Part shown: piece by piece, positions 23,583 to 42,679 of the stretch
Layout: every line of letters begins with the position of its first letter
Numbering within the stretch: the first letter of the stretch is position 1
Source of the DNA: a bacterium
Lineage (GTDB): Bacteria > Bacillota > Clostridia > Lachnospirales > Lachnospiraceae
Direction of reading: 5' to 3'
Assembly: GCA_023663725.1 (NCBI GenBank)
Contig: JAMPGX010000002.1
Coordinates: 197,308-261,307 of the forward strand
Length of the DNA: 64,000 nucleotides
Made by a program: the position numbers and the translations under genes
Notes under the pieces: model-generated
Told to the model about the DNA's origin: nothing
Seen by the model: only the letters and a program-made list of their open reading frames with translations
Database searches by the model: none

Positions 23583-24002
23583 TTATCCCATGGGGGAATA
23601 CAGTTGATAAAATCGAATGTAAAAATATAACGATACAATCAGAGAGCACCCCCCGACTACAAACAAAAAGCCATATCCCCGTAAGCGGTTTTTGCGCTTT
23701 CTCTCTATATAGTCATAGAATTTCTCCTCCCGTATTTTCAGTCCAGGAATAAGCATGGATATTGCTCTTCCGGCCATATAAGAGATACCGTCCAGCGCTC
23801 CCTCATTAGTGATCATGATCAGCAGCGCAAAAAGGATGAAAAGTAGTCCAGGTATCAAAAAGGCATCGCTGAGCATGCGGCACCGCTCCAGCTCCGGCGC
23901 TGCCGTAAAATCCCTCAGCGAAAGATACAAGTAGGCTACCGCAGCGCAGGATGCATATCCGATCACATATTTTAGAATAGATTTTTTTGACGGCTTTTTC
24001 AA
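23583..24002 (-). CDS. DUF3899-like membrane protein at the end of the left Opp operon
   Basis: 139 residues with three to four hydrophobic segments (YVIGYASCAAVAYLYLSL, FLIPGLLFILFALLIMI, YGFLFVVGGCSLIVSLYFYI). The pattern of a central 'R-LSDAFLIPGLLFIL' followed by a Lys/Arg-rich loop matches DUF3899 proteins, which are often found beside oligopeptide ABC operons in Lachnospiraceae. Its ATG overlaps the stop of the oppF-like gene (ATGA). The function is unknown; accessory or stabilising subunit is a guess. Confidence 0.75.
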   Translation of the reverse strand: MKKPSKKSILKYVIGYASCAAVAYLYLSLRDFTAAPELERCRMLSDAFLIPGLLFILFALLIMITNEGALDGISYMAGRAISMLIPGLKIREEKFYDYIERKRKNRLRGYGFLFVVGGCSLIVSLYFYIRFYQLYSPMG

Positions 24003-25255: not shown

Positions 25256-27458
25256 TCTGATCACCTCCCTCTGTCAGTTCCTTATCCTTCTCAGCCTGTT
25301 CCTTAGCCTTCATTCGTTCAATACGGTTTGTGATGATCTGAGGAATCTCAACCTTTGGCGCATCCGGGTGTAAGAGCCAGGTTGCCGCCCAGTGGCCCGG
25401 TGAAACCTCGAACATCGGAGGCTGTCTCTCGAAATCAATCTTGAGGGCGTATTTGTTACGCTGCGCAAAAGCATCGCCCTCAGGCGGATAGATCATATTG
25501 GGCGGTGTGCCCGGTATCGCATCCAGCTTTTCATTGGTGTCGAGATCTGGCATGGACGATAAGAGAGCCCATGTATAGGGATGGCGCGGGTTATAAAAAA
25601 TATCTTCCACAGAGCCATATTCCACGATCTTGCCAGCATACATCACGGCGATATCGTCCGCCATATTTGCGACGACTCCCAGATCATGTGTGATAAAGAT
25701 AACGGAGAGATTGCGCTCCTGCTTCAGACGGTTGATCAGCTCCAATATCTGTGCCTGAATCGTCACATCCAGGGCAGTGGTAGGTTCATCGCAGATCAGG
25801 ATCTCCGGATTGGCGGACAGGGCGATGGCGATCACAATACGCTGGCGCATACCTCCAGAGAATTCAAAGGGGTATTGCTTGTAGCGCATGCGAGGCTCAT
25901 TGATGCCCACCTCCTCCATAAGCTTGATGGCCTTCTCCTTTGCCATGCTCTTGGTGACGCGGTATACCACGTCGGAAGCCTTTGTCTTGAGATAATCCAC
26001 AATATCAATGCTTCTCTTGCGGAAATCCGCTTCCGAAGCGGCGCGGATATAGGCCTCATAATGCTTTTCGAGTCTGTCTATATGCCGAATAATATCGGCC
26101 TTCAGATCCTCCAGAGCATAGACTCTCTTGGGGATTACCTTCCAGTCTGCCGCCCGTCCTCTGGCGAGCAATGCCTGCTGTCTCCTCGACTGTCTGGCAT
26201 AGCGCGCCTCCTCCTTGGGATTGTGCGCTTTATAGTAGAAGTACTTATCTATGGCGCCCTTCAGACTGCTGTGGAAGGTGTAGGCAGTGCTGTCCTTAAT
26301 TATTTCCAACTGATCGATGCTCTGCATCGTCTTGACAGAGAGCGTCTTGCAGAGCTTGTAGGCGGTAGATTTATCGAAATCTCCGCTATAGAACCTCTTG
26401 GCGTCCTCAAGCTCTGATAGCAGCTTTTTCTTAAGCTCAAGGGCAGCCTCGAAGGAATATCTGACGCCCTTTTCCTCCGCCTCCAGAAAGCTGTCCATAA
26501 AACTGCTGTTCAAGTCCTCCAGAGCAGCTTGATTGAGCTCCTCAATGGGGCGGCTGTGTAGATCCTCTGCTGGATGACGCAGCTTATAATAGCCGATTCG
26601 GAAGAAATTGGGCCGTTCCTGAGCTATCATTTCCTCCAGAAGTGTCTCCAGGCTCTTGAGAGAGGCCGTGATCACCTGGGGTAGAAGAGCAGTCTTGCCG
26701 TCCTTGTCCTTTTCGGGCTGATATGACAGCAGCGCCTTCTGCAATTCCTCAGCGCAGTTGTTCAGGCGCTCGCCGTAGCGGGCTGTATAGAAGGCATCGT
26801 CTATCTTGCGGATACGGCTGATATAATCTCTCAGCGTTCCTCTGGCATCCACCTTCTGTTTCTTTTCCGCTTTGAACAGAAAATCCTGAAGAGAGTCCAG
26901 CAGATATCCGGCCTTGGAATCAGACAGATTGTAGTTGTTCTCCAGACGGTTTGCCTCGATGCAGAACTTGTCAAAGGTGGCGGTCATCTGTTTGATAGCA
27001 GCCGCACTGTCAGCTCCGGCCGCCGCCGTCATATTTTTGCGCAATGTCTCCAACAGGCCGTTAAATTCTGCCCTGGCCTCTCGGCGATTCGCTTTGTTTT
27101 TCAGGAGCATGGCCTCTGTGATCTGTTTGCCGATCTTCACGATCGGATTGAGAGAGGAGAGAGGGTCCTGAAAGATCATGGAGACCTTGTCGCCTCGGAG
27201 CTTATACATCTCCTCCTCGTCAATCTTCAGCAGATCTTTTCCATCATAGAGAATTTCTCCGCCCTCGATGATGGAGTTGCCCGCCAGTATTCCCAGGATT
27301 GCCTTGGAGGTCACGGATTTGCCGGAGCCGGATTCCCCCACGATGGCAAGAGTCTTGCCGCGCTCCAAATCAAAAGAGATATCCCTGACCGCCTTTAATG
27401 TGCCGCCGGAAGTGCGGAAAGAAATTTTTAAATTTTTAACTTCCAATATTTTATCCAT
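25245..27458 (-). CDS. Oligopeptide ABC transporter ATP-binding protein, OppD-type, with about 380-residue insertion
   Basis: 737 residues, more than twice a normal OppD. Walker A GESGSGKS is at 41-48 and the Q-loop IFQDPLSSLNP at about 95-105. The conserved core then stops near residue 125 and resumes near 515 with KEKAIKLMEEVGINEPRMRY. Signature SGGMRQR is at 534-540 and Walker B ILICDEP at 553-559; the C-terminal [14 protein letters not shown] and GTPPNMIYPPEGDAFAQRN are intact, though the usual Fe-S-like Cys cluster is reduced. The inserted block is highly charged and helical (many K, E, L, R and Y). All ATPase motifs are present, so it should be active. Its end overlaps the oppF-like gene. 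Confidence 0.92.
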   Translation of the reverse strand: MDKILEVKNLKISFRTSGGTLKAVRDISFDLERGKTLAIVGESGSGKSVTSKAILGILAGNSIIEGGEILYDGKDLLKIDEEEMYKLRGDKVSMIFQDPLSSLNPIVKIGKQITEAMLLKNKANRREARAEFNGLLETLRKNMTAAAGADSAAAIKQMTATFDKFCIEANRLENNYNLSDSKAGYLLDSLQDFLFKAEKKQKVDARGTLRDYISRIRKIDDAFYTARYGERLNNCAEELQKALLSYQPEKDKDGKTALLPQVITASLKSLETLLEEMIAQERPNFFRIGYYKLRHPAEDLHSRPIEELNQAALEDLNSSFMDSFLEAEEKGVRYSFEAALELKKKLLSELEDAKRFYSGDFDKSTAYKLCKTLSVKTMQSIDQLEIIKDSTAYTFHSSLKGAIDKYFYYKAHNPKEEARYARQSRRQQALLARGRAADWKVIPKRVYALEDLKADIIRHIDRLEKHYEAYIRAASEADFRKRSIDIVDYLKTKASDVVYRVTKSMAKEKAIKLMEEVGINEPRMRYKQYPFEFSGGMRQRIVIAIALSANPEILICDEPTTALDVTIQAQILELINRLKQERNLSVIFITHDLGVVANMADDIAVMYAGKIVEYGSVEDIFYNPRHPYTWALLSSMPDLDTNEKLDAIPGTPPNMIYPPEGDAFAQRNKYALKIDFERQPPMFEVSPGHWAATWLLHPDAPKVEIPQIITNRIERMKAKEQAEKDKELTEGGDQSGK

Positions 27459-27460
27459 AG

Positions 27461-29035
27461 TTATTCCTCCACACCGCGTAATGCAGGGTTAAATGCGTCC
27501 CGCAGGCCGTTGCCAAACAGATTGAAGCATATCATCAAAAGGGCAAGGAACAGCGCGGGGTAGATCATCAGATGCGGGTAATTTGTCCATATACCGCTGG
27601 CATCCGAGAGCAGTGTTCCCAGCGAAGTGGTCTGGGCGGTGCTGAATTTAACGATGCCCAGAAAGCTCAGAGTGCTCTCCTGATTGATGACGCCCGGAAT
27701 GACCAATGCGCAGGAGGTGATGATCGTGCCGAGGGAATTCGGGAAAATATGTTTCCAGATGATTCGTCGGTCCCTGGCGCCAAGCGTCCTTGCTGCCATG
27801 ACATACTCCTGATTCTTGAAGCGGTAGAACTGACTTCTGACGCGGTATGCTGTGCCGAGCCAGCCCGTCATGACAAAGGCGAAGAGCAGGCTGGGGATCG
27901 CCCCCACCTTCTGGGACAGATGGATCTGGAACAGTGTAGCAACCACGATAAAGGGGACACCGTTTAAGATATCGGAGATACGCTCCATCACGATATCGAT
28001 AGTGCCTCCGTAATATCCTTCGATGGCGCCGTAGATCGCGCCGATGAAGAAATTGATCGCCGATACGCACAGTGCGACAAAGATGCTCAGCTTGATACCG
28101 TCCGCCATGCGGACAGCCAGATCATAGCCCTGGCTGTCTGTGCCAAGGAGATAGTCAGGTTCCTCGCCGTACAGATAGCGGTAGTAGTTATAGTAGAGAA
28201 TCCGAACCTTGTACAGAGCGGTCTCCAGCGTGCCTCCGCCCGCGTATTCATAGTAGATCAGATTCCCCTCGGAGTCTCTTTTATAATTGTCCTCCAGCAC
28301 CATGCCCGGACCATACTCAATGGCTTTGGCTCTGCCGCTGTCTGATATGGTGACGGGCGAGCTTTTTCTCGTCTTGTACCAGTTGTTGGCGTCTGCGGGG
28401 TCCATATTCCACTCGTTATTTTCTACGAGAGGATAGAGTACATGGATGCCGGTCTCTTTCTCCCAGGATATGATATTTTCATATTCGGGCTGTTCTATGG
28501 TGATATACATAAAACCGGTTTCCAGGTAGGAGTCGATTCTGCCAGAGTAGATCATGGATTCCTTCTTGCCTGTGGTGGTGGCAAGCGTTCCCTCATCCAC
28601 AGCCAGTATGGGCTGATAGTAGCTGGCCATACCCTCCTCAAGGGTAACGCCGCGGCCGTCGTAATCCTCGGCGCCGATGCCAATGGCGATGGCTTTGATC
28701 AGACTTTTCTCGGTAAAGCTGCGGTCCATGCCGCCGTCGCAGATGCCGATATCGCGCAGAGCGGCAATGCGGGGAGGCTTCTTGGCATAGAAGGCCACCA
28801 TGAAGGTAGATTCATGGGAGAGCAGCAGTGGCGCCAGAAAAGCGTACAGCACTACGAGTACAATGATAACGGCCGCAATAACGGAAGCCCTGTTCTTGCG
28901 AAAGCGAATCCAGGCGTCCTTAAAATATCCGATAGGCTTATCGTCAAATTTCTGATCGGTAAGCTTCTCGCCGCTGTGGGCAAATTCAAATTTTTCCTTG
29001 GGGATATCCCCGTATAATTTTGTGTTTTCTGCCAT
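27461..29035 (-). CDS. Oligopeptide ABC transporter permease, OppC-type, with large external loop
   Basis: 524 residues against about 300 for typical OppC. The N-terminal cytoplasmic part and TM1 (ASVIAAVIIVLVVLYAFLAP) are standard. Residues about 72-312 form a 240-residue extracytoplasmic insertion rich in Tyr and acidic residues. The conserved OppC motif LGTDSQGYDLAVRM (297-310) then leads into the five remaining membrane segments and the EAA loop AARTLGARDRRIIWKHIFPN. The stop of the OppB-type gene is directly adjacent to its ATG. The loop may contact the large binding protein. Confidence 0.92.
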   Translation of the reverse strand: MAENTKLYGDIPKEKFEFAHSGEKLTDQKFDDKPIGYFKDAWIRFRKNRASVIAAVIIVLVVLYAFLAPLLLSHESTFMVAFYAKKPPRIAALRDIGICDGGMDRSFTEKSLIKAIAIGIGAEDYDGRGVTLEEGMASYYQPILAVDEGTLATTTGKKESMIYSGRIDSYLETGFMYITIEQPEYENIISWEKETGIHVLYPLVENNEWNMDPADANNWYKTRKSSPVTISDSGRAKAIEYGPGMVLEDNYKRDSEGNLIYYEYAGGGTLETALYKVRILYYNYYRYLYGEEPDYLLGTDSQGYDLAVRMADGIKLSIFVALCVSAINFFIGAIYGAIEGYYGGTIDIVMERISDILNGVPFIVVATLFQIHLSQKVGAIPSLLFAFVMTGWLGTAYRVRSQFYRFKNQEYVMAARTLGARDRRIIWKHIFPNSLGTIITSCALVIPGVINQESTLSFLGIVKFSTAQTTSLGTLLSDASGIWTNYPHLMIYPALFLALLMICFNLFGNGLRDAFNPALRGVEE

Positions 29036-30001
29036 TTATTTTTCCCCCATTCTGATCCGAGGATCAATAAAGCCGTAACTGATATCAACAAGGATGCCGC
29101 CTAACAGTCCGATAAATGTATAGAACATGGAGTCAACCATGAACACATCGAAATCCCGCAGGTTGATGGAGGTCAGGAACAATTGTCCAACGCCGGGGAT
29201 ACCGAAAATTTTCTCAATGATAAAGGAACCTCCTAGAATACTCAGAAAGCTGGAGATTACCATGGGCAGGATCGGAACCATGGCATTTTTCAACGCGTGG
29301 CGCGTGGTCGCCTGCCCTCTGGTCAGACCTTTGGTTCTGGCCAGCAGCATGTATTCGCTCGTCAGCGTCTCTGTGAGCTCTGCCCTGGTGAAGCGGCACA
29401 GGCCAGCGATCTCACCGAAGGACAGTGCAAGAATGGGCGCTATCATGCTGTGAAACATTTTTAATGTAAAGTAGGAGCCTCCCGCATCTGCGACAGAATA
29501 CATCTGCAGCGGAAGCCAGCCCAATTTGAAGTAGAATGTGTACTGTACCAGAAATGCGTACACGTAGCTGGGCACGGACACGAATATCATAACGGCCGTG
29601 CTGATCAGGGAATCCTGCCATTTGTTCTTCTTGATGGCAGCAAAAATACCCAGGGCGATACCCAGGGGAACTGAAAGAATCAGAGAGTAGAAATTCACCA
29701 GGACGGTGGGAAGCAACCGGCTGGTCAAGGTCTCCATCGCAGGCTGGCGGAAGGATATATACCAGGAAGTGCCAAAATCCCACTCGGTAACGATATTTTT
29801 CCAATAAATGATATACTGGGTGAGCAGCGGCTCATTGTAGCCCAGCGCGTCCCAGCGCGCTTCAATCAGAGCAGCCATAACCTTTTCCTGGGGCAGCTCT
29901 CTGGGAAGAATCCTGATGAGGATGAAGCAGATGGTAGTGATGATAAAGAATGTAAAAAACATCAGGATGATTCGTTTGATTACATATTTGGCCATTCTCA
30001 T
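29036..30001 (-). CDS. Oligopeptide ABC transporter permease, OppB-type
   Basis: 321 residues from the ATG at 30001 (AAGGAG nine bases upstream; an upstream TTG is ignored). Six membrane segments start with MAKYVIKRIILMFFTFFIIT. OppB features: ILIRILPRELPQ, the permease core SLILSVPLGIALGIFAAIKK, EAA-type loop LLARTKGLTRGQATTRHALK, and the ending GGILVDISYGFIDPRIRMGE. Standard length, in contrast to the OppC-type partner. Confidence 0.93.
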   Translation of the reverse strand: MRMAKYVIKRIILMFFTFFIITTICFILIRILPRELPQEKVMAALIEARWDALGYNEPLLTQYIIYWKNIVTEWDFGTSWYISFRQPAMETLTSRLLPTVLVNFYSLILSVPLGIALGIFAAIKKNKWQDSLISTAVMIFVSVPSYVYAFLVQYTFYFKLGWLPLQMYSVADAGGSYFTLKMFHSMIAPILALSFGEIAGLCRFTRAELTETLTSEYMLLARTKGLTRGQATTRHALKNAMVPILPMVISSFLSILGGSFIIEKIFGIPGVGQLFLTSINLRDFDVFMVDSMFYTFIGLLGGILVDISYGFIDPRIRMGEK

Positions 30002-30036
30002 GTATAGTCTCTCCTTCGACAACCGGTTAAACGTCA

Positions 30037-30109: not shown

Positions 30110-32662
30110 TTATTCATAGTTCAGAGCGCCGTTCTGACTCTTCACATATTCTGCCCATTCAGCATCTGTGTAATCGTACTGCATCAGGCGTAAGCCGCCG
30201 AAGCCATACATGATATTGTACTCGTCGGTGTAGTAATCGCACTGCCAGGAGAGCAGAGTACTTACTGTGGTAGCGCACAGAGGAATACGGTAATACTTCT
30301 TCAGGTATTCCTCCTCCATCTGAGCGGTGACGGAGAGCTTCAGGTCAAAATCGCTGTTGCTGTATACGCCGGAGCCGGTCAGAGCGTTGGACCATTCCTT
30401 CCAGGTCATGGTCACAGGCTCACCCTTTACATCCAGGGTCAGAGTCTCTGTCGAAGGATCCCAGCAGCCAGCCTCGTGGATCTGCACATAGTCGTCATCG
30501 CAGTACACGCGGAAGGTACGGAACGGATAGAACGCCGCGCCGCCCCATGCGCCGTAGCCGATAGCATATTCTCCGTTTGAGACATCCGCATACCGGTTTG
30601 TCAGGTTGCCGATAGGCTCTAACGTGATAGGACCGAAGCCGGACCCCTCAGCGGCAGCGTTGATATATTTGTTCATCAGCTCGCACTGCTGGGTATCAGC
30701 GGATTCAATTGCGCCGGCAGCCCAGGCGATACGGATGGAGATAGGATCTCCCTCGGTGTAGAGACCGTCAGCCACCAGCTCCTGGCAGGCCTGCGCCATC
30801 AGGTTCTTGGCCTCAGTCAGATTGTAGCCGTTGATGGACTCATAGGCGTCCTTCAGGGTAGCGTAAGGAGTGCCGTCGCCGTATTTTACCTCATACAGAT
30901 TGCAGATTGCCTGCATCGCCTCCTCGGAGCTCCGGTACATGGAGTTAGGATCATTGTACACATCATAGTAGTAGAGGCTGTTGAGCAGTGAATAAGCGGG
31001 CTTGTAGCCAGCGGTTGCAGACACATACTCGTTTCGGTCGATGCCAAGGCTGAGAGCCTTGCGGAAATTCACGTTGGACAGCACGACAGAGTTGGTGTTG
31101 CCCTTGGAGGCATCCATGGTCTTCAGGTTATCCAGACCGCAGTTAAAGAAGAAGGACATGGTGTAAGTCTCGTCCTGCTTGTACAGCTTGTCGCTGGTAG
31201 AGTAAGCCACCAGGTCGTCTGCCTCAGGGGACCAGTTGGAGAGCTCGCCCTTCAGGAACGCCTGCTTTGCCGTGGCGTTATCCATGACATTGATAATCAC
31301 CTTGTCGGTCAGATACTGCTGTCTTTTCTCACCGTCCACCTCGAAGTTGGTGTAGGAGACCAGGTTGCCGTTCTCGTCCTTCTCATAGCCGTACCAGTTC
31401 TCGTTCCGCACGAACACCATCTGTTTGTCCTGCTGCATGGACTCCAGCCGGTAAGGGCCGTAAGACTTGGTGGTCTCCGCGCTGCTGCCATAGTTGGTGG
31501 TCACCAGACTGCCGGAGGTATCCTTGCCAGCCTCGTAGAGATCCTCGGCAACTAGCCAGGTGGCTCCCGAGAGGGATACCAGGAAGTAATTCTTGTCAAT
31601 GTAGAACTGATTTACATAGCGGATGGTATAGTCGTCCACCTTGTAGCAGCCTACAACATCATCATAGTTAACAGTAGGGAACTCCTTGCTGTATGCCAGA
31701 TAGCTCGGTGCGTCGGCTTCGCTTTCGCCCCAAGCGGCCTGAGTGCTGATCACGCTGACAAGCAGCGCCAGAGACTCCTCAGTCAGAGGAGCGCGTCCCT
31801 CCTCGTCAGCCAGAGCTGCCAGCTTCTCATAATCCTCTACGTTGAAATACTGGTCGCCATAGTTTTCCACATATGCGCCCAATGAGTCGCCGCCCAGATA
31901 AGCGGACGCCGCATTCACCAGAATACTCACGGCTGCGCCGTCGGGAGTGGTGTAAGTGCCATCCTCGCCCAGAACCAGATCCGCTACAGTATAGCCGCCG
32001 GAGGTGGAATTATCCATCCACACGGTTGAGCCCTGGAAGTAATAGGCCTCGCCGCCGGCAACGGCGGACTCGCCGGAATAGTAGAGGTTCGCTCTGTAAT
32101 TCTTCATGCCGGGGTCAAGCAGCTGCTTCATGGAGTAGATGTAGCTGTCCGCGTTGATGGCGGTGCCGTCCTCCCACTTGGCGTTGGGATTGAGCTTGAT
32201 CTCAAACACAAAGCCCTCGGTAGTGTCCTCGGCGGTCTGACCTTCCTGCAATGTGACATTGTACTTGGTCAGGTCATCCTGATGCTGTGCGGTCACATCC
32301 TCCACGGAAGTGGCCATCTCGTATGTCCACTGGTACAGCATCTCCTCGGAATCCAGAATGGATATGTCCACAAAACCGGATGCCAGATAGGTGCTTAAGA
32401 TGGCGTCATCCGCATTCATCTCCCAGGTGTGGGGATTCCAGTTGGTGGCAAGCGCGGGCGCATAGTCATAAAAGGTGTAGGTATCCGCTGCTGCCGGTGT
32501 TTCGGCATTGCCGCTTTCTGAGTTTTCCACAGTGCTGCTGTCTGTGGAGTCTGTGCTGCTGGTATCCCCTGGGGTGCCAGGAGTATCATTGTTGCCGCAT
32601 GCCGTCATGGACATTGCCGTGGCAAGGGCCAGCACAAGAGCAAGTAGCTTTTTTCTTTTCAT
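30110..32662 (-). CDS. Oligopeptide-binding lipoprotein (OppA-like), left operon
   Basis: 850 residues from the ATG at 32662 (AGGAGGAG upstream). Signal peptide LLALVLALATAMSMTAC ends in the lipobox MTAC, followed by a Thr/Ser/Asp-rich linker. The body is a family 5 solute-binding protein: ATNWNPHTW near the start, FEIKLNPNAKWEDGTAINAD, SYGPYRLES, NVNFRKALSLGIDRNEYVSA, and the C-terminal ADVSNGEYAIGYGAWGG. Typical OppA is about 540 residues; this one carries additional internal segments. It is only distantly similar to the binding protein of the right operon. Confidence 0.92.
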   Translation of the reverse strand: MKRKKLLALVLALATAMSMTACGNNDTPGTPGDTSSTDSTDSSTVENSESGNAETPAAADTYTFYDYAPALATNWNPHTWEMNADDAILSTYLASGFVDISILDSEEMLYQWTYEMATSVEDVTAQHQDDLTKYNVTLQEGQTAEDTTEGFVFEIKLNPNAKWEDGTAINADSYIYSMKQLLDPGMKNYRANLYYSGESAVAGGEAYYFQGSTVWMDNSTSGGYTVADLVLGEDGTYTTPDGAAVSILVNAASAYLGGDSLGAYVENYGDQYFNVEDYEKLAALADEEGRAPLTEESLALLVSVISTQAAWGESEADAPSYLAYSKEFPTVNYDDVVGCYKVDDYTIRYVNQFYIDKNYFLVSLSGATWLVAEDLYEAGKDTSGSLVTTNYGSSAETTKSYGPYRLESMQQDKQMVFVRNENWYGYEKDENGNLVSYTNFEVDGEKRQQYLTDKVIINVMDNATAKQAFLKGELSNWSPEADDLVAYSTSDKLYKQDETYTMSFFFNCGLDNLKTMDASKGNTNSVVLSNVNFRKALSLGIDRNEYVSATAGYKPAYSLLNSLYYYDVYNDPNSMYRSSEEAMQAICNLYEVKYGDGTPYATLKDAYESINGYNLTEAKNLMAQACQELVADGLYTEGDPISIRIAWAAGAIESADTQQCELMNKYINAAAEGSGFGPITLEPIGNLTNRYADVSNGEYAIGYGAWGGAAFYPFRTFRVYCDDDYVQIHEAGCWDPSTETLTLDVKGEPVTMTWKEWSNALTGSGVYSNSDFDLKLSVTAQMEEEYLKKYYRIPLCATTVSTLLSWQCDYYTDEYNIMYGFGGLRLMQYDYTDAEWAEYVKSQNGALNYE

Positions 32663-32764: not shown

Positions 32765-32833
32765 TTTGTGAATACCTGTATACAATCAACGCAGTATGCA
32801 GTTCGTGTAATTTAGTATAAATTACACTTGTCA
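32765..32833 (-). repeat. Left copy of the 70-base inverted repeat (IR-L) around the Opp/integrase locus
   Basis: Reverse complement of the right copy at 34423-34493, with four substitutions and two one-base indels by hand alignment. It contains the -10 of the left operon and the start of its leader, including CATACTGCG and TATACAGGTATTCAC, which form an imperfect palindrome that could be a recombinase core. Confidence 0.9.
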
Positions 32834-32842
32834 AAATGTCAA
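32814..32842 (-). promoter_or_regulatory. Promoter of the left Opp operon
   Basis: Minus strand: consensus TTGACA (32842-32837), 17-base spacer, TATACT (32819-32814). The -35 lies just inside the segment bounded by the inverted repeats; the -10 lies in the repeat. The -10 is the centre of a perfect palindrome GTGTAATTT-N5-AAATTACAC, a likely operator. Confidence 0.8.
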
Positions 32843-33046
32843 TATTTTTTTGCTTATGCCCAGAAAGCGTTTTTTTGGTCGGTGGATAAATATTTTTATA
32901 TATTGTACATTGTCGCCAAATCCCTGACTTATTTCAGGGTATTTATGTGCAAGTTGCATCAATCTAATATCTTTGACCGTTATTTGAATTCAAAATGACA
33001 AACTGTCACAAAAAATAGCAATTAAAAACCACATATTGACAAAAAG
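32843..33046. other. AT-rich gap between the left promoter and the integrase gene
   Basis: No coding capacity. Contains a small hairpin CCCTGA/TCAGGG (32922-32939) and, on the minus strand, TGACA-TTG-TGTCA-like inverted repeats near 32990-33010 that may loosely end the integrase transcript, plus several TTGAC/GTCAA copies. Confidence 0.5.
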
Positions 33047-34324
33047 TCAAAGACAATGCCCAGGTATGCCGAAAGTATGATTTGTCTGAATAAACTCATT
33101 CAGCTTATTACATGTCGCCTGCTTTTGCGCCGCGAAACTGTGCGCGTATATGTCCATAGTGGTGGAGCAGTTTGCATGTCCCAGATATTTGGAGATATCG
33201 ACAATGTTTACCTCCAGATAATTTAACAGAGTTGCGCAGGAATGACGCAGCCCATGCAGTGGGATCACAGGCAACATCTCTAACCCCTGATCCCTGGCCT
33301 GCTGGGAGTGATCCTGCACCCATTGGTTATAGTGTTCCAGATGCCTGACAAAATGTTGATAGGGAGTATTAGGTCCCATAAGCTTCCCATCGGCCTGAAT
33401 GAACAGGTTGCCCTTTCCTGACCATTTGTCGCCCAGATTATGCTGCAGAGCATCATATTCCATACGGTAAATATTTAATAATGTAAGAACACAGTCAGGA
33501 AACGGAACTTTTCTCACGGAGGCCATGTTTTTTGGTGCCTTATAGTCAAATCCATTCTCTGTCCTGCCTATGGATTTGTTGATGGATATCTCCTGTGTGC
33601 GATAATCTATGTCCTCCCAGCGCAGAGCAAGAGTTTCCCCTTTTCTGAAACCGCAGAACAGGGACAGGGCATAGAATACTTTGTATTGCCCGGATACCAC
33701 ATATCGTCTTCCTGATCTGGACGTGTCATAGGTCAGATCCAGGGATCTGAGAAACATCAAAACCTGCGACGGCGTAAAATACCGCAGATCCTCGCTATCC
33801 CGTATCCCTTTTGGCTTTTGTGCGTAACGGCAGGGATCATCTTCAATGAGATTCCACCGCCGGGCTGTCTTGAAAATGCAGCTCAATACACTGCCATACC
33901 GTCTGATGGTTCCCGGGGCATACTCTTGCGCCAACACCCGGTAGAATGCCTCGATATCCGCTGTCCGAATATGCGAAACCCTGTAGCCCTTGAAATAAGG
34001 AATAATCCGGTCGATCAGCAGATGTTCATATCCCACATAGGTGCCGTAGGCAAGATCACTTTTAACATTTGCCAGCCATTGACGGGCAAAATCCTCAAAT
34101 AATTCTTTATTAGGGCCTGTGCTGTAACCATATTTAATTCTGTCCTCCATGATCATGGCAAATCTCAAGGCTTCCTTTTTCTGCTGTCCGGGTGTGGCAG
34201 ACTGATCCACCGGACAGGTCATGTTTTTGACCAACTTGTTTCCGCTGCTGTCATAACCCATGCAGATCGCAATGCGGTATACGACTCTCCCGCTTTTGTG
34301 TGTAACTCGTTTTATTGATGCCAT
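33047..34324 (-). CDS. Tyrosine site-specific recombinase (phage-type integrase)
   Basis: 425 residues. An N-terminal arm-binding-like domain (residues 1-65) is followed by a SAM-like core-binding domain (70-175, EDFARQWLANVKSDLAYGTY) and the catalytic domain. The catalytic set appears complete: R227 in GFRKGETLALRW, K near 263, H357 and R360 in HGLRHSCATLL, H383 in LGHANCSTTMDIYAHSF, and nucleophile Y393. It is therefore likely active. No excisionase, relaxase, capsid or conjugation gene is nearby. It is flanked on both sides by the 70-base inverted repeats and sits between two divergent transporter operons, which suggests a local inversion role and not element integration. Confidence 0.93.
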   Translation of the reverse strand: MASIKRVTHKSGRVVYRIAICMGYDSSGNKLVKNMTCPVDQSATPGQQKKEALRFAMIMEDRIKYGYSTGPNKELFEDFARQWLANVKSDLAYGTYVGYEHLLIDRIIPYFKGYRVSHIRTADIEAFYRVLAQEYAPGTIRRYGSVLSCIFKTARRWNLIEDDPCRYAQKPKGIRDSEDLRYFTPSQVLMFLRSLDLTYDTSRSGRRYVVSGQYKVFYALSLFCGFRKGETLALRWEDIDYRTQEISINKSIGRTENGFDYKAPKNMASVRKVPFPDCVLTLLNIYRMEYDALQHNLGDKWSGKGNLFIQADGKLMGPNTPYQHFVRHLEHYNQWVQDHSQQARDQGLEMLPVIPLHGLRHSCATLLNYLEVNIVDISKYLGHANCSTTMDIYAHSFAAQKQATCNKLNEFIQTNHTFGIPGHCL

Positions 34325-34374
34325 TTTCTACCTCTTTTCTTCGTTTTCCAGAATCCATATCCGACCAAGGAAAC

Positions 34375-34420
34375 ACCTGTTTGCAAGTGGATTATAACAG
34401 GTAACTCAATGAAATGTCCA
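34375..34420 (-). promoter_or_regulatory. Promoter and operator of the integrase gene
   Basis: Minus strand: TGGACA (34420-34415), 18-base spacer, TATAAT (34396-34391). An inverted repeat ACCTGTT (34375-34381) / AACAGGT (34396-34402) brackets the -10. The same ACAGGT word recurs in both 70-base repeats, so the recombinase may repress its own gene. Confidence 0.65.
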
Positions 34421-34443
34421 TGTGACAGAGTGTAATTTATACT
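34415..34443 (+). promoter_or_regulatory. Promoter of the right Opp operon
   Basis: TGTCCA (34415-34420), 17-base spacer, TATACT (34438-34443). The -10 is in the repeat, the poor -35 just inside the invertible segment; it overlaps the -35 of the integrase promoter on the other strand. Confidence 0.65.
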
Positions 34444-34493
34444 AAACTATACAAATTGCATACTGCGTTTGATTGTATACAGGTATTCACAAA
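34423..34493 (+). repeat. Right copy of the 70-base inverted repeat (IR-R)
   Basis: Inverted partner of 32765-32833. It covers the -10 region and the first part of the right operon's leader. The palindrome around the -10 is degenerate here (AAACTATAC instead of AAATTACAC). Confidence 0.9.
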
Positions 34494-34593: not shown

Positions 34594-36900
34594 ATGAAAA
34601 AGAAATTGTTGGCATTGCTGTTGACAGCTGCTATGACGGTTTCTCTGGCTGCCTGCGGCGATAATAACAACCCTAACACTGGCAGCAGCGATAACTCGAC
34701 GCCGGGCACGGAGAGCCAGACGCCAAGTGATGAGAGCCAGACGCCCAGCGCTGACAACAGTAACAATGGAGGCGCGGCGGCCGAAGACACCACCCCGCTT
34801 ATGGTCGAGGTGAATAAGCAGGACGGTATCGATGTGGCTGCTCATGATGCCGCTTCCGACGAGATCTATAACACCGTCTTTGGCGAGTATCAGACCAAAT
34901 ATGACGAGGCGCTTGCCGAGACCAACGTGAGTATGCGTCTGGCTAAGATGGCTATTGCCGAGGCAAAGCTTCTGGAGGCCGGAGCTATTACGCCTTATGT
35001 GAATGACGCCGGCAACTATGCCATCAGCGCCATTGTGCCCCACACGATTCCCGCTGTTGAGTGGGGATTTGACGGTGAGACCCGCGCATACAGCAATTTG
35101 CTTATTGCCGACCGCCTGTTGACACCGGAGGAGCGCACCGAGCTCACCACGAAGTGGAGTGAGCTGAAGGGAACCGGTACATGGGAGGATTACGCCAAGC
35201 AGTGGGCAGCAGACAACGGCATCACTCTGGCGGACAGCTATACCTTAAGCTCCACTTCCAACGACGAGCCTACCACCTGGGATTATCTGTCCTCTTCCAA
35301 GACTGCTGACGGAAAGACCCTTTCTGTCACCTGGGACGGTCTGCTTCGCTATGACTCCGAGAACATTCAGCAGCCTGCCCTTGCCGAGAGCTATGAGATT
35401 TCGGACGATAACCTGACCTACACCTTCCATCTGCGCAAGGGCGTGAAGTGGGTTACTTATCAGGGCACTGAAGTGGCAGAGCTGAAGGCCGACGACTTTG
35501 TGGCGGCCATGCAGCACATCGGCGACACGCCTACCGGCGGTCTGTATGCCGTGGTTTCCTGTATCGAGAATCTGGCTGCCTATGCCACCGGTGAAATTAC
35601 TGATTTCTCCGAGGTTGGCGTCAAGGCTCTCGATGACTATACCGTTCAGTATACCTTAAGCGAGCCTACCCCGTGGTTCTTGTCCGTGGTTGGATATTCC
35701 GCGATGGCTCCTCTGTGCCGCAGCTATTACGAGTCTCAGGGAGGTAAATTCGGCGAGGAATTTGATTCCGCCGCAGCCGACTATACTTTCGGCTCGGATG
35801 CGCAGCACATCGTTTACTGCGGGCCTTATCTGGTGAGCAACTATACCTACCAGAATACCATCGTGCTTACGGCTAACCCCAGTTATTACAACGCAGACAA
35901 GGTTCAGATCAAGACCATCACCCTGAAGTACAATGATGGAACGGATGAGTTGTTCTCCTGGAACAATTTTATGAACGGCACCTTCAACGGCGGCTTAGGA
36001 TTGGGCTCCGCTGCACTGGAGCAGGCTAAGGCCACGACCGTGCCCGATGATCCCGATGGCAAGAATTACTTTGAGAAGTATGCATATGTTGTTTCCGACA
36101 GTGCTACCTCTTACCTGAATTTTGTCAATCTGAACCGTTATGCTTACGCGAACTACAATGATGAAACCCAGGTAATGTCCGGTAAGACACAGCTACAGGC
36201 TGAGCGCAGCCATACTGCCATGATGAATCAGAATTTCCGTCTGGCGCTGGCGTTTGCCAATGACCGCGGCACAGTGAACGCTCTCAGTAGGGGCGAGGAA
36301 CTGCGGTATGCCCGTCTGACCAACTCCTATGTGCCCGGCAACTTCATCAGCACCTCCGAGGAGATTACCGTTGATATTAACGGCACTGCCACAACCTATC
36401 CGATCGGAACCTTCTATGGGGAGATTCTGCAGGATCAGATTACTGCGGACGGTTATCCCATGAAGGTTTGGGATCCCAGCGGCGCTGACGGCGCAGGCTC
36501 CAGTCTTGGATTTGACGGCTGGTATCTGCCCGAGGAAGCAGTAAAGTATCTGGATAAGGCTATTGAGGAGCTTGCAGCAGAGGGCGTTGAGATCAGCGAG
36601 ACCAACCCTATTTATCTCGATATGCTTTACGAGGACTACAGCACCGTTGGTTCCGCTATGAATCAGGCTCAGAAGCAGAGCCTTGAGTCGGTTCTCGGCG
36701 GCAAGGTAATTATCAACCTGGTTCCTGTCGTGTCCTCTGACAATGAGTCCTATGCTGCCTATTACGGAGAGTTTGGATATCAGATGAACTATGATTACGG
36801 CGGAAATACCGGTTGGGGTCCCGACTATGGCGACGCTCAGACCTATCTGGACACTCTGGTGGCCGGCGGTTACATGGGCTATGCTCTGGGGCTTTGGTAA
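34594..36900 (+). CDS. Oligopeptide-binding lipoprotein (OppA-like), right operon
   Basis: 768 residues. Signal peptide LLALLLTAAMTVSLAAC with lipobox LAAC, then an Asn/Ser/Thr-rich linker. Residues about 75-190 form an extra N-terminal region. The family 5 binding fold starts near residue 210 with PTTWDYLSSSKTADGK and continues with LTYTFHLRKGVKWV, YCGPYLVSNYTYQNTIVLTA and FRLALAFANDRGTVNA, ending at NYDYGGNTGWGPDYGD. AAGGAGGAG precedes the ATG. It differs greatly from the left binding protein, so the two importers probably take different peptides. Confidence 0.92.
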   Translation: MKKKLLALLLTAAMTVSLAACGDNNNPNTGSSDNSTPGTESQTPSDESQTPSADNSNNGGAAAEDTTPLMVEVNKQDGIDVAAHDAASDEIYNTVFGEYQTKYDEALAETNVSMRLAKMAIAEAKLLEAGAITPYVNDAGNYAISAIVPHTIPAVEWGFDGETRAYSNLLIADRLLTPEERTELTTKWSELKGTGTWEDYAKQWAADNGITLADSYTLSSTSNDEPTTWDYLSSSKTADGKTLSVTWDGLLRYDSENIQQPALAESYEISDDNLTYTFHLRKGVKWVTYQGTEVAELKADDFVAAMQHIGDTPTGGLYAVVSCIENLAAYATGEITDFSEVGVKALDDYTVQYTLSEPTPWFLSVVGYSAMAPLCRSYYESQGGKFGEEFDSAAADYTFGSDAQHIVYCGPYLVSNYTYQNTIVLTANPSYYNADKVQIKTITLKYNDGTDELFSWNNFMNGTFNGGLGLGSAALEQAKATTVPDDPDGKNYFEKYAYVVSDSATSYLNFVNLNRYAYANYNDETQVMSGKTQLQAERSHTAMMNQNFRLALAFANDRGTVNALSRGEELRYARLTNSYVPGNFISTSEEITVDINGTATTYPIGTFYGEILQDQITADGYPMKVWDPSGADGAGSSLGFDGWYLPEEAVKYLDKAIEELAAEGVEISETNPIYLDMLYEDYSTVGSAMNQAQKQSLESVLGGKVIINLVPVVSSDNESYAAYYGEFGYQMNYDYGGNTGWGPDYGDAQTYLDTLVAGGYMGYALGLW

Positions 36901-37028: not shown

Positions 37029-38609
37029 ATGGGAAAATACGTATTCAAGAGACTGTTACACGGAGTTGTATCCATTATTCTGGTGGTTTTCATTGTCATG
37101 GTGCTGGTCTACGGACTGATGAACCGTGATCTTGTGTTTGCCAAGGATGGTAACTTTGGCAAACAGGCCAACAATAACAGACGTACTTATATGCTTCAGC
37201 AGTGGGAACTGTTCGGTTACCTCGATTATGTCCCCTATGCTGATTATATGTTGATGCTCCGGCAGAACGGAGAGATTGACGAGGAGACCCGTGCCGATGC
37301 CGTAAAGCTTGGAAGAGAAGCGGACGGAAGCAAGGATTCGGAGCTCACTGCACAATATATCAAACAATTTACCGAATATTATGAGTCGAAAGGGTATACG
37401 GTGGAACGCTTAGGCGCCGTGTTATCCAGAGGCAAGATAGCTCCGGGCGGCCAGCCCGCACTGTTTGCCCATAAGGATAATTCCCTGCTGGAACGGCTCT
37501 GGAAATATTTTGTCGGCCTCGTTCAGGTGGACAATATTCACTATGTGCCGGAATACGATGACATCGGAGAGAGAGGTCTCACCTTCACTCTTCACGATCC
37601 GCTGTACGGCGGAGAAAAGTTTTCACCTGCCATCATCGGCAACGGAACCAAGCATAAATATCTTCTCTATGTTGATAATATGTTTCCTTACATCCATCAG
37701 AATCTGGCCACTATCAATCTGGGCGCCAGTTTCTCCATCAGTCGGGGCGTGGATGTGTTCACGACCATGACGCAGAGTCAGGGCTCCTGGATGCAATCCA
37801 TGATCACCTATCCCACAGGTCTTTGTGAGATAAGCGCTGACAATCTGCACACAGCTACTTATATTGCGGGATCCAGGGACACCAGCGATATGCTTCAGGC
37901 CCGCTTCACGGATGATTATACCAATATTATGACGGTAAGGGGCAGCTATTCCCGTCTGGGTTATTCCTTCCTGATCGGTATTATCGCTTCCATTGTGACC
38001 TACATTCTGGGTCTGCCCATTGGCGTGCTGATGGCGCGTTTTAAAGAAGGACTTTTCGATAAGATCGGTACGGTGTATATCATGTTCATATCCGCCGTTC
38101 CATCTCTGGCGTATATTTTCCTGTTTCGAGGCATTGGCAACGCCATGGGGATGCCGACGATGTTCGATATGGATAACGCGACGAAAGCCATGTATATATT
38201 ACCGATTATTTCTCTTGCGCTACCATCAGTGGCCAGTATGATGAAATGGATGCGTCGGTATATGATTGATCAGATGAATTCCGACTATGTGAAATTCGCC
38301 CGGTCCGGCGGTATGTCGGAGACGGAGATTTTCTTCAAGCATGTGATGAAGGTGGCCGCCATTCCCATTGTGCAGGGTATTCCCGGTACCATTCTCTTTG
38401 CCATGACGGGAGCCCTCATCACTGAGCGTGTCTATCTGGTCCCCGGCGCGGGTGGCCTGTTAATTGACGCCATCAATCAATATGACAACTCGGTTATTGT
38501 GGGTGTGACACTGTTTTATGCCGCTCTGTCGGTGCTGTCACTGATCTTGGGCGATGTGTTGATGGCCATGGTAGATCCCAGAATTTCCTTTACGGATAAA
38601 GCGAGGTGA
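37029..38609 (+). CDS. Oligopeptide ABC transporter permease, OppB-type, with large external loop
   Basis: 526 residues, about 200 more than typical OppB. TM1 (LLHGVVSIILVVFIVMVLVYG) is followed by an extracytoplasmic region of about 280 residues (residues 31-310) before the permease core (YSFLIGIIASIVTYILGLPI). EAA-type loop: KFARSGGMSETEIFFKHVMK. It ends with VLMAMVDPRISFTDKAR, as usual for OppB. In the left operon the large loop is in the OppC-type subunit instead. Confidence 0.92.
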   Translation: MGKYVFKRLLHGVVSIILVVFIVMVLVYGLMNRDLVFAKDGNFGKQANNNRRTYMLQQWELFGYLDYVPYADYMLMLRQNGEIDEETRADAVKLGREADGSKDSELTAQYIKQFTEYYESKGYTVERLGAVLSRGKIAPGGQPALFAHKDNSLLERLWKYFVGLVQVDNIHYVPEYDDIGERGLTFTLHDPLYGGEKFSPAIIGNGTKHKYLLYVDNMFPYIHQNLATINLGASFSISRGVDVFTTMTQSQGSWMQSMITYPTGLCEISADNLHTATYIAGSRDTSDMLQARFTDDYTNIMTVRGSYSRLGYSFLIGIIASIVTYILGLPIGVLMARFKEGLFDKIGTVYIMFISAVPSLAYIFLFRGIGNAMGMPTMFDMDNATKAMYILPIISLALPSVASMMKWMRRYMIDQMNSDYVKFARSGGMSETEIFFKHVMKVAAIPIVQGIPGTILFAMTGALITERVYLVPGAGGLLIDAINQYDNSVIVGVTLFYAALSVLSLILGDVLMAMVDPRISFTDKAR

Positions 38610-38614
38610 GAGGC

Positions 38615-39595
38615 GTGGAAGATTTCAGTAAAAAATATAATCTGTCGGATGCGGAGCTCTTTGCTCCCGCCAATCATGATGAACTGGCCTCCGAGAAGAT
38701 CACTGCGCCAAGGTATTCCTACTGGAAATCCGTGTTCCGTGTGTTCTTCCGGAATCGGGTCAATATTGTCGTGCTTTCGCTGCTGGCCATTCTGATTGCC
38801 TTTGCCTTTATCTATCCGGTGGTCATCGGCTATGATCCGGAGGTGAATCCTTATCTTAACCTGACGGATATGGCCGCGCAGCACCTGAATCCCAAGAAGG
38901 CTATCGAGCATTTCGGCTTTAACATCAAGTGGCTTTTCGGCACCAGCGGTCAGGGAGCGTCCACCTTTGACTCCATCTGGCATGGCTCGCGTCTGTCCAT
39001 CATGCTGGCTGTGGTCTGTGCTGCCATCAACATGACCATCGGCATTATCCTGGGTGCTGTCTGGGGCTTTTCACGGAAGGTGGATATTGTCATGAACGAG
39101 GTTTATAATGTGCTGGGCAACATTCCCATGACCCTGCTGATCTCCGTTATGGTGCTGGTCTTTTCCCCCAGCTTCTGGACGCTGGTCTTTGCCATGACGG
39201 TCATCGGATGGCTGGGCATGGCCTATTATATCCGCACCCGAGTTATCATTATCCGCGACCACGAGTACAATTTGGCATCTCGGTGCCTGGGTACCAATAT
39301 TTTTAAGATTGCCATCAAGAACATTCTGCCGTTTATGACTTCCGTGATTGTGCTGGAGATTGCCAGTGCTATCCCAGGCTACATCTCCTATGAGGTGTTC
39401 TTGAGTTATATTGGACTGGGTATCAACCAAGCTACTCTGGGCCGCTTGATCCAGGAGGCTCAAAATGCCATGTCCACTCCCGGATGGGGGTGGGAGTTCT
39501 GGTCTCCCGTGGCGGTGGCATCCGTGATCACCGTGGTTCTGTATGTTGTTGGTCAGAATCTGGGCGATGCATCCGACCCCAGAACACATATGTAA
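38615..39595 (+). CDS. Oligopeptide ABC transporter permease, OppC-type
   Basis: 326 residues if started at the GTG at 38615, six to eight bases after GAGGTGA; a GTG at 38606 overlapping the upstream stop would add three residues. TM1 NIVVLSLLAILIAFAFIYPV; OppC motif FGTSGQGASTFDSIWHGSRL; core IMLAVVCAAINMTIGIILGA; EAA loop ASRCLGTNIFKIAIKNILPF. Standard length. It forms the channel with the OppB-type subunit. Confidence 0.92.
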   Translation: MEDFSKKYNLSDAELFAPANHDELASEKITAPRYSYWKSVFRVFFRNRVNIVVLSLLAILIAFAFIYPVVIGYDPEVNPYLNLTDMAAQHLNPKKAIEHFGFNIKWLFGTSGQGASTFDSIWHGSRLSIMLAVVCAAINMTIGIILGAVWGFSRKVDIVMNEVYNVLGNIPMTLLISVMVLVFSPSFWTLVFAMTVIGWLGMAYYIRTRVIIIRDHEYNLASRCLGTNIFKIAIKNILPFMTSVIVLEIASAIPGYISYEVFLSYIGLGINQATLGRLIQEAQNAMSTPGWGWEFWSPVAVASVITVVLYVVGQNLGDASDPRTHM

Positions 39596-39608
39596 GGAGG
39601 ACACATCA

Positions 39609-41366
39609 GTGGAAGATAAGAAAGTATTGCTCTCCGTTCGCGACCTCCATGTCAAGTTTCGTGTCCGCGGCAGAGTGTTGACCGCAATCCGCGGTATTGA
39701 CCTCGATATCTATGAAAATGAATCCATTGCCATCGTGGGCGAGTCGGGCTCCGGCAAGTCTGTCTTTACCAAGACTTTTGCGGGAATGCTGGATTCCAAT
39801 GGATTCATCTCCGAGGGGCGTCTCATATTCTCCGATGATGAACTGGCGGATACTCATGTCCGCAACGGTTCTGTGGCACAGAATTTTATCAGATATGCCA
39901 GGGCCAGATTGGATGAGTATTCCAGATATGAGTTTGGAGCAGAGACCTGGCAGGCTATGGAAAAGCTGAAGACCGAGCGCAGGGAACGCATGGGACTGTC
40001 CCGCGAGGAGCAGGAGACTGCTGACAAGGCGCTGAGGAGCCTTATCGATGAACGTGTCAGTGCCTTCAATCTGAAGCAGACACTGGATCCCAGAAATCAG
40101 AAGCAGGAGATTCTGGAAGCCACCAGAAAAATGAAGGAATATGATCAAAAGATCAAGGAATTAAAAGCGGCTAATGCCCAGAAAGCCAAGTCTCACAAGG
40201 CTGCCGCTTCCAGTGATATGGCTTATCAGCATGAATATGAGAAGAAGATGGCCGAGCTGAAGGCCCGCTACGCGAAGGAGATCACAGGCACCCCTGATAA
40301 AAAGACGCTGGAACGCAATGAAATCCTGGCAAAAGAAATCTATCTTTCCATTGGACGCTATGGCTTCAACAAGCGTCTGCAGTTGATGAGCGGTCTTTTG
40401 AAAGCCTTAAAGAAGGCGATGATAATGGGCGTGGAGCTGGATGATGAGACGCAGAGAAATAAGGTGTTTGACACCGTGGCTTTCCGTGTGAAGTACTTGG
40501 ATGAAACGCCGGAAAAGCTCCATGGCACCTGCATTTTGAATCTTGCCAATGTGAAATTTGCCGGCGATTGGAACCAGATTCGCGGACGGCGTATTGCCAC
40601 GGTTTTTCAGGATCCGATGACGAGCCTGAATCCCATTGTTACTATCGGTAAACAGATTACCTCAGTTATCGTGCGGCATCAGGGCTGCTCGGAGGCAGAG
40701 GCCAGACGCCGTGCGATCGAGCTCATGCATAAGGTGGGCATTCCCAAGGCGGAGAGCAGGTTCGACGATTATCCGTTCCAGTATTCCGGCGGTATGCGCC
40801 AGAGGATTGTCATTGCCATTGCGCTTTCCTGCCAGCCGAAGATTCTGATCTGTGATGAGCCTACTACGGCTCTGGACGTGACGATCCAGGCACAGATACT
40901 TAAGCTCATCAAGGATTTGCAGAGGGAGTTCGGGTACACTATTGTATTTATTACTCATGATCTGGGCGTTGTAGCCAATATCGCGGACCGTGTGGCAGTG
41001 CTGTACGCCGGTCAGGTGATCGAATTGGGCAGTGTGGAGGAGGTCTTCTACGATCCGCATCATCCCTATACCTGGGCGTTGCTTTCCAGCCTTCCGCAGC
41101 TCGCGCAGAGCGGCAGCAAGCTTTATTCCATTACCGGCACGCCGCCGTCTCTCTACAACAGTATTACAGGAGACGCTTTTGCGCCCCGCAATCCGTTCTG
41201 CCTGAAAATTGATACTCTGGAAGAGCCGCCCATGTTCAAGATAACGGATACGCATTATGCGAAGACTTGGTTACTTGATCCAAGAGCGCCGAAGATCGAT
41301 AAACCCGAAGGTATCCAGAATATTCATGAGAAGATTCTGGGCGCTTACAATGTGGAAGAAATATGA
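39609..41366 (+). CDS. Oligopeptide ABC transporter ATP-binding protein, OppD-type, with about 230-residue insertion
   Basis: 585 residues from the GTG at 39609, eight bases after AAGGAGGA; the longer frame overlaps the oppC-type gene. Walker A GESGSGKS is near residue 44, but the Q-loop [16 protein letters not shown] only near residue 330. The extra segment between them is charged and helical. Signature [16 protein letters not shown], Walker [13 protein letters not shown] and C-terminal [14 protein letters not shown] are intact. In the left OppD-type protein the insertion lies after the Q-loop, so the two insertions arose at different points of the fold. Confidence 0.92.
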
Positions 41367-42679
41367 GAGAGGGGGCGAATAAGTTGAGAAAGATGATAAA
41401 AAAGAGCCTCCTTGGAGATTGTCCGGTGGATGCAAAGGGCAGAGAGATCCTACTGAGTCTGAAAAATGTGGATATTACTTTCGGCAAAGGCGATAATGCT
41501 GTTCACGCTGTTACCGATGCCTCCTTTGATATTTACAGGGGAGAAACTTTCTCGCTGGTAGGTGAATCCGGTTCCGGTAAGACTACCATTGGCCGTGCTG
41601 TGATCAGGGTTAATCCTCTGGCCGGCGGTGAGATAGATTATCGGGGGACAAGGATTTCCGGGAAAATACCCCATGCGTTGGACAGAGAAGTGATCAGGAA
41701 CATCCAGATGGTGTTTCAGGACCCCGCCGCATCCTTAAATGAGCGGGCCACGGTTGACTATATCATTTCCGAGGGACTTTACAATTTTCATCTGTTTGAG
41801 AACGAAGCCGACAGGATTCACAAGGTGGAGAAGATGATTGAAGAAGTCGGTCTGCTGCCCGAGCATCTGACCCGTTACCCGCATGAGTTCTCAGGCGGGC
41901 AGAGACAGCGTATCGGCATTGCCCGCGCTATGGTTATGGAGCCTGAGCTGGTGGTGGCGGATGAGCCTATTTCCGCTCTGGATGTGTCTATCCGCGCCCA
42001 GGTGCTGAATCTGATGAAGAAGTTTCAGGAGGAAAAGCATCTGACTTATCTGTTTATTGCCCATGATTTGTCTGTGGTACGCTTTATTTCCGACAGGATT
42101 GGGGTGATTTACAAGGGACGGATTGTTGAGGTGGCTTCCGCGGAGGAACTTTTTAACTTTCCGCTTCATCCGTATACTCATTCTCTCATTTCTGCGATCC
42201 CGATTCCGGATCCGCAGCTTGAGAAGAATAAGGTGCTTTACACTTATGATCCGTCCATTCATGATTACTCTGAGGATAAGCCGGAGTTTGTGGATATCGG
42301 CCATGACCACTGGGTCTATGGAAACAAGGAGGAGATTGAAAAATACAAGGCTCTGCGGGAGAAGGGCGAGCCGGTGAAGGCGATCACCATCACTAGCGAT
42401 CCGGAGAAGCTGAAGATGTCAACAGAGCAGAAGGAGGCGCAGGATGCAGCTTTGGAAGCGGAGTTCCTGGCAGCTCCGGTGCATGATACAGGCAGCAAGT
42501 TCTATGCTGTGGTATCATTTTTCCTGCCGATTCTGGGACTGATCGTGGGATTCGCTTTCAGGCATTTTCATTATATGCGCAACTACAGGATGTGCAAAAA
42601 AGGCGCCATTGCGGGATTCCTAGTCCTGGGTGTGATACTGCTCCTCTTCCTGATATTGATTCTGCTGGCGGTTATTTAG
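41363..42679 (+). CDS. Oligopeptide ABC transporter ATP-binding protein, OppF-type, with C-terminal membrane segments
   Basis: 438 residues from the overlapping ATG (ATGA). A TTG at 41384 after GAGGGGG is a good alternative start. Walker [11 protein letters not shown]-loop [20 protein letters not shown], signature [15 protein letters not shown], Walker [13 protein letters not shown] and [16 protein letters not shown] are standard. After residue about 340 comes a linker and then two hydrophobic helices ([18 protein letters not shown]; then [20 protein letters not shown]), which is unusual because OppF is normally a peripheral cytoplasmic protein. No internal insertion is seen, unlike the left OppF. 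Confidence 0.9.

Follow-up and report, generated by a model that had tools for sequence, protein, structure and literature searches.

A candidate selector between two importer operons in gut Lachnospiraceae: a recombinase-bearing segment whose inversion may reassign a shared −35 element

The stretch of Lachnospiraceae DNA analyzed here (64,000 nucleotides, hereafter the window) contains a tyrosine recombinase gene between two divergent Opp-type importer operons, and recombinase-associated inversion of the segment between them is well supported by comparison with related loci. We consider it probable, at roughly four chances in five, that the locus works as an exclusive selector, in which inversion at a recombination core exchanges promoter halves and leaves one operon ON and the other fully or nearly OFF. 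The invertible cassette would be the 1.6 kb from core to core, with the recombinase gene and a single good −35 inside it, and each operon would permanently own a −10 box and leader, the −10 lying inside the core. Whichever operon lies next to the recombinase 3′ end would borrow the cassette's TTGACA, which is located there. Because a −10 within the crossover site is combined with a good −35 inside one end only, inversion would give the −35 to one operon and take it from the other, so that the operon at the 3′ end would be ON and the operon at the 5′ end, having lost its −35, fully or nearly OFF. Transcribed in both states from a promoter of its own within the cassette, the recombinase would bind two half-sites and exchange strands around TTTATACTAAA.

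Each operon comprises five genes, encoding a family 5 substrate-binding protein (SBP), two permeases, and two ATPases, and the two operons are paralogous. On the reverse strand, the left operon consists of the substrate-binding lipoprotein gene (30110..32662, start codon picked by eye) and the permease and ATPase genes (23999..30022); the corresponding parts of the right operon, on the forward strand, lie at 34594..36900 and 37029..42679. The recombinase gene (33047..34324, reverse strand, 425 aa) reads leftwards and is the sole open reading frame (ORF) of at least 100 aa on the coding strand of the segment; no mobile cargo or transfer genes of the Tn916/Tn1549 type occur among the segment's ORFs of that length on that strand. 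The corresponding segment in genome G104 has one extra ORF, AAA_14 + DUF4143 (L051 10707-11918), between the recombinase and the 3′ core. Two further peculiarities concern the importers themselves: the OppD-type ATPases of both window operons are very long (737 aa, 25245-27458; 607 aa, 39543-41366), with the ABC match in two stretches, and the OppC-type permease of one importer in G019 (L036 7730-9679) has an inserted RCC1-like repeat domain.

An earlier note on this DNA had described a complete tyrosine recombinase lying between inverted repeats, and the protein analysis bears this description out. The gene product matches the phage integrase domain (PF00589, E 5e-15) and a SAM-like domain (PF14659, E 4e-12), and the residues R227, H357, R360, H383, and Y393 are invariant in all 15 aligned proteins, as expected of a tyrosine recombinase of the phage integrase type. 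By profile, the closest solved chains are the “Int protein” of PDB entry 6emy and its kin (E 3.9e-13 for 6emy). Twelve switch recombinases group together as a single clade (100/99), from which the G062 protein was left out as broken, its frame being interrupted into ORFs of 165 and 237 aa. Outside this clade, a serine resolvase gene precedes the recombinase in G159 and G308. The gene appears to have its own promoter, with a −35 TGGACA (34415..34420, reverse strand; TGTCCA on the opposite strand), a spacing of 18 bases, and a −10 TATAAT (34391..34396, reverse strand), an 11/12 match. Since the scan as a whole returned 4 promoter-like sites where 4.8 were expected, one match on its own says little unless it is conserved across loci. 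A candidate promoter is found in 12/12 loci scanned, a scan run without a shuffle control and leaving out G131, which is cut; nine have TGGACA or TGGACT with TATAAT, G106 (TGGATT) and G104 (TGGTCT) have variants each with TATAAT, and G102 has a weaker, more distant TAGACT/TACAAT. The recombinase is thus probably expressed in both orientations.

The two inverted arms, each holding the leader, −10, and core of its operon, lie at 32765..32833 (left, reverse strand) and 34423..34493 (right, forward strand). These copies of about 70 bases carry the −10 elements of the two operons. Gapped alignment recovers them and confirms the count of differences in the earlier note, four substitutions plus two one-base indels, with 25/25 identities between 32765-32789 and 34469-34493 and 37/41 (90%) between 32788-32828 and 34429-34469. 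Inverted similarity continues at lower identity into the starts of the SBP genes (263 columns, 66%), because the operons are paralogous. When a 74-base arm query was compared with its own genome, good matches were returned at the two arms only, and two others were 14-base matches with E 2.8. The presumed crossover sites are a perfect 10-bp palindrome around GTA containing the left −10 (32805..32827) and an imperfect palindrome containing the right −10 (34430..34452). Around the −10, the core is near-palindromic, with a mean of 6.0 of 8 pairs in 30 switch-type arms, 5.0 in nine others, and 2.5 in random AT-rich sequence. For scanning, loci were turned so that the recombinase reads rightwards, and a core was taken as a sequence like AGTTTAGTATAAATTAC with up to 3 mismatches, a pattern derived from some of the arms later counted as having a core. 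Genome-wide, this pattern at 2 mismatches gives 89 matches against about 93 in a reversed-pattern control (hand count), which is chance level, so only place and context define a core.

Within each arm, the leader motif TGAATACCTGTATACAAT (left copy, 32769..32786; right copy, 34472..34489, reverse strand) may serve the operon as an operator. Allowing one mismatch at most, it is present in 47/138 genus genomes (four in the reversed-pattern control), and in 14 such regions that were read it precedes an SBP operon in 12, L197 and L198 being the other two. The motif belongs to the operon side and occurs independently of the recombinase. Given how widespread it is before SBP operons, the idea that the entire repeat is the recombinase site was rejected.

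Only one end of the segment has a good outward −35. At the left end, TTGACA (32837..32842, reverse strand) stands 17 bases from TATACT, the −10 of the left operon (32814..32819, reverse strand), forming a leftward promoter at 32842-32814; at the right end, the −10 TATACT (34438..34443, forward strand) has no recognizable −35, the sequence at that position (TGTCCA-17-TATACT, 34415-34443, forward strand) matching at three of six bases where shuffled inner sequence averages 2.6. Of the two −35 elements originally placed just inside the segment, TTGACA therefore stands for the left operon, whereas TGTCCA matches about as well as shuffled sequence and, read on the opposite strand, is the −35 of the recombinase itself. 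Across loci, outward TTGACA-17-TATACT is found in 13/13 arms on the recombinase 3′ side and, at spacings of 16-18, in 0/9 on the 5′ side. The 5′-side arms score 2-4 of 6 at the −35 (mean 2.6, the level of shuffled sequence), and TTGACA is attained by shuffled inner sequence in 0.14% of cases. The difference between the sides is large (Mann-Whitney p 1.2e-5), a value that overstates independence, as the species are kin.

These counts come from a table of 40 arms, 23 at recombinase loci (13 3′, nine 5′, and one alternative junction in G061) and 17 elsewhere. Eleven of the 17 have TTGACA at spacing 17: the right arm of G066, the third site of G061, and all nine single promoters in genomes without the switch (G099, G107, G110, G001, G140, G159, G069, G134, and G021). 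It is absent from the other six (the far arm of G014, the left arm of G066, G101, G102:C50, G020, and G136), and the occurrence of arms lacking a −35 in G101, G020, and G136, where no recombinase was found, counts against the switch reading. The table leaves out core-pattern matches in unrelated settings (L129, L138, L140, L142, and L143) and arms truncated at the core (G101:C90, G134:C435, two in G100, and two in G064); L139 and L141 showed no core. In six genomes (G099, G107, G110, G001, G140, and G159; L190-L195), an enolase gene is found close to the lone TTGACA promoter that serves the SBP operon. In G021, which gave no match to the recombinase at 1e-10, the closest orthologue of the window's right operon (88-96% protein identity) carries a full TTGACA promoter; the lack of a −35 is therefore not inherent to the right operon. 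The window is presumed, from its promoter sequences, to have the left operon ON and the right operon OFF.

The asymmetry also bears on the best surviving alternative, a graded switch in which neither operon is ever silent and inversion swaps their strong and weak levels of expression. Such an arrangement would fit the retention of a −10 on both sides, as well as the −35-like sequences on the 5′ side in G062 (TTGAGG at spacing 16) and G130 (TTGACA at spacing 15), whose OFF sides may leak. It sits poorly with 5′-side scores at the shuffled level and with the assignment of the window's TGTCCA to the recombinase promoter, and we regard it as unlikely. The original proposal that both sides always keep a promoter, trading strong for weak, is likewise not supported, given the 0/9 count, with G130 a possible exception.

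An exchange of the upstream promoter halves of the two operons by inversion, as first proposed, is supported by comparison of relatives. Between G019 and G062 there is a clean 1.8-kb inversion: the recombinase segment aligns in the plus orientation (1881 columns, 84%), and the flanks align in the minus orientation (5469 + 2573 nt on one side and 2516 nt on the other, 85-89%). All four arms of this pair share TAACGTAGTTTAGTATAAATTA (22 bp), which places the breakpoints in the core; outside this stretch each has the letters of its own operon, and inside it those of the segment. Since the flanks differ by 11-15%, this inversion may be old, and the interrupted recombinase frame of G062 also counts against the switch reading. 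Orthologous operons (grouped at a minimum of 62% over at least 300 codons) are likewise found in both states, as judged from promoter sequence: the L type is ON in G000 and OFF in G104, the G019_a type ON in G019 and OFF in G062, the G019_b type OFF in G019 and G130 and ON in G062, and the L037 type ON in G014 and G026 and OFF in G101. G026 and G101 have both operons in common (88% and 95%), and no recombinase was found in G101. Both orientations therefore exist between species, which answers the earlier suggestion to compare the locus in relatives; the assembly of the window's own genome holds one orientation only. On a G061 scaffold, a 388-bp outer flank occurs twice (100%), one copy meeting the 3′ inner end and the other the 5′ inner end across a gap of 11 N, as expected from two coexisting orientations, an assembly error or strain mixture being possible. 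At a third core in this genome (L137 6550-6728; G061:C8 near 218547), another importer operon adjoins 175 bp from the 3′ inner end (100%), followed by unrelated DNA. Contig ends at or near arms (in G061, G106, G101, and twice each in G102, G134, G100, and G064) were considered as evidence of flipping and given no weight, as a static repeat also breaks short-read assemblies.

Inversion of this kind might instead be an evolutionary product of ordinary homologous recombination between the arms, each species now being fixed and the recombinase inactive on these repeats. In favor of this, some arms are long and closely similar (143 nt at 94% in G036), a single orientation is seen in most assemblies, and two genomes keep promoters with recombinase remnants only: in G066 the arms are kept 0.9 kb apart around a remnant (residues 1-61 and 390-414), and in G069 a remnant adjoins an intact TTGACA promoter. 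Yet the 22 bp common to the four arms at the G019/G062 breakpoint is short for homologous recombination, the catalytic residues are kept throughout, the recombinase is retained with its own promoter inside the segment in every locus scanned, and G061 shows the double junction; on balance we find this explanation improbable, more so than a graded switch. The association and its conservation instead suggest that this recombinase makes the inversion, which would be frequent and reversible, with the OFF operon silent.

The distribution of the locus was examined in 138 genomes of Acetatifactor-type Lachnospiraceae, with a recombinase cut-off of E at most 1e-60. The recombinase is found in 14 of these, the window's own included, and a core with a −10 box lies 3′ of it in 13 (12 by pattern, plus G061, whose contig ends inside the same core), G159 being the one without; inverted cores on both sides are present in 9/14. 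A 5′-side core near the recombinase is absent in G014, G102, and G106, where an enolase gene lies on the 5′ side. By comparison, no core lies close to the gene at any of 17 loci where recombinase homologues occur in a different context, and a family sample of 397 genomes gave 15 matches outside the window's genome, with no core near the recombinase in the 16 loci fetched; a 3-mismatch core match 1.9 kb from the recombinase in L078 is attributed to chance. Related loci were also sought in the genome contigs, where no relative was found; the core scan of these contigs gave 33 stretches, of which 19 match genus contigs by length, and a brief look at three of the other 14 (L154, L164, and L165) showed no leader motif. 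The remaining alternative, that the repeats are shared promoter or operator regions of paralogous operons under one regulator, that the recombinase is a stray integrase gene, and that nothing flips, has in its favor the paralogy of the operons, the similarity running into the genes, and the leader and −10 before similar operons without a recombinase, but is very improbable given the clean G019/G062 inversion, the two G061 junctions, the confinement of the −35 to the 3′ side, and the same recombinase clade beside cores in 13/14 genomes though the flanking operons belong to different groups. The earlier concern that the repeats might prove widespread without a recombinase is thus half realized: leader and −10 do recur elsewhere, yet as single TTGACA promoters, and the inversion evidence stands.

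One layout departs from the usual one. In G014, the arrangement is inside out, with a second core 18.3 kb away (L132 8884 and L037; G014:C77:11884 and 30149); two entire convergent operons stand between the cores, and the recombinase sits immediately outside this pair of cores. A separate case comes from a different genus, where a distant homologue of the recombinase (L080 of G538, 35%) is flanked by long inverted repeats (364 columns at 74%). These extend to the starts of two divergent genes (484 and 546 aa, no Pfam match), and the locus may be an independent second switch.

In classical invertons, a whole promoter within the segment turns one side on or off, whereas here the segment supplies only the −35, the core contains the −10, and either of two operons would be selected. 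Inverted repeats do surround a segment beside the regulated genes in our case; the segment does not hold a complete promoter, only the −35 being inside it and the −10 in the repeat core, which makes the locus a variant of the invertible-promoter switch. At the sapA locus of Campylobacter fetus, one invertible promoter segment serves either of two flanking genes; that switch is RecA-dependent and larger, moves a whole promoter, and acts on S-layer genes. The likeness lies in one promoter segment with either of two flanking targets, and the differences in the half promoter, the dedicated recombinase, and the importers seen here. The Hin gene of Salmonella resembles ours in lying inside its invertible segment, but encodes a serine rather than a tyrosine recombinase. 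The Int of 6emy, which we take to be the Tn1549 integrase, is the nearest solved recombinase by profile; that enzyme moves a transposon, whereas our segment lacks mobile cargo and has promoters as its sites. Xer1 of Mycoplasma agalactiae is a tyrosine-type recombinase. In the vpma system, one unique promoter has alternative partners, single lipoprotein genes that change places (PMC5634654). One promoter, alternative partners, and recombinase type are common to that system and ours; in ours whole importer operons are involved and stay put in the usual layout, the G014 layout coming nearer to vpma. An 844-bp invertible segment at a fimbrial locus of Providencia stuartii encloses its recombinase (PMC5903667), as the segment here does. 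Studies of invertible-promoter switches describe short inverted repeats, a tyrosine recombinase, and inversion that sets the promoter (PMC11892184, PMC5903667), features common to the fim, C. difficile RecV, and Bacteroides types and to the present locus. Among the papers listed by literature searches, none describes a switch of this kind in Acetatifactor or acting on Opp operons, an absence that carries little weight.

We lean, with some caution, toward a broader reading in which Acetatifactor-type gut bacteria have a modular importer selector, with a −10 box taken as the crossover site and a shared −35 serving one of two operons at a time. The cassette would have been re-paired with different operons in evolution and would also work inside out, flipping two whole operons (18 kb in G014). 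Perhaps selection extends to several operons by exchange with further sites, as the third G061 site hints. Most inversion switches described so far act on surface traits; here the choice would be between two nutrient importers, and crossing over inside the −10 box would keep one promoter complete at any time, giving a compact two-output toggle. If so, bet-hedging on diet would become testable in common gut Lachnospiraceae, with relatives whose recombinase is lost or absent as natural locked controls.
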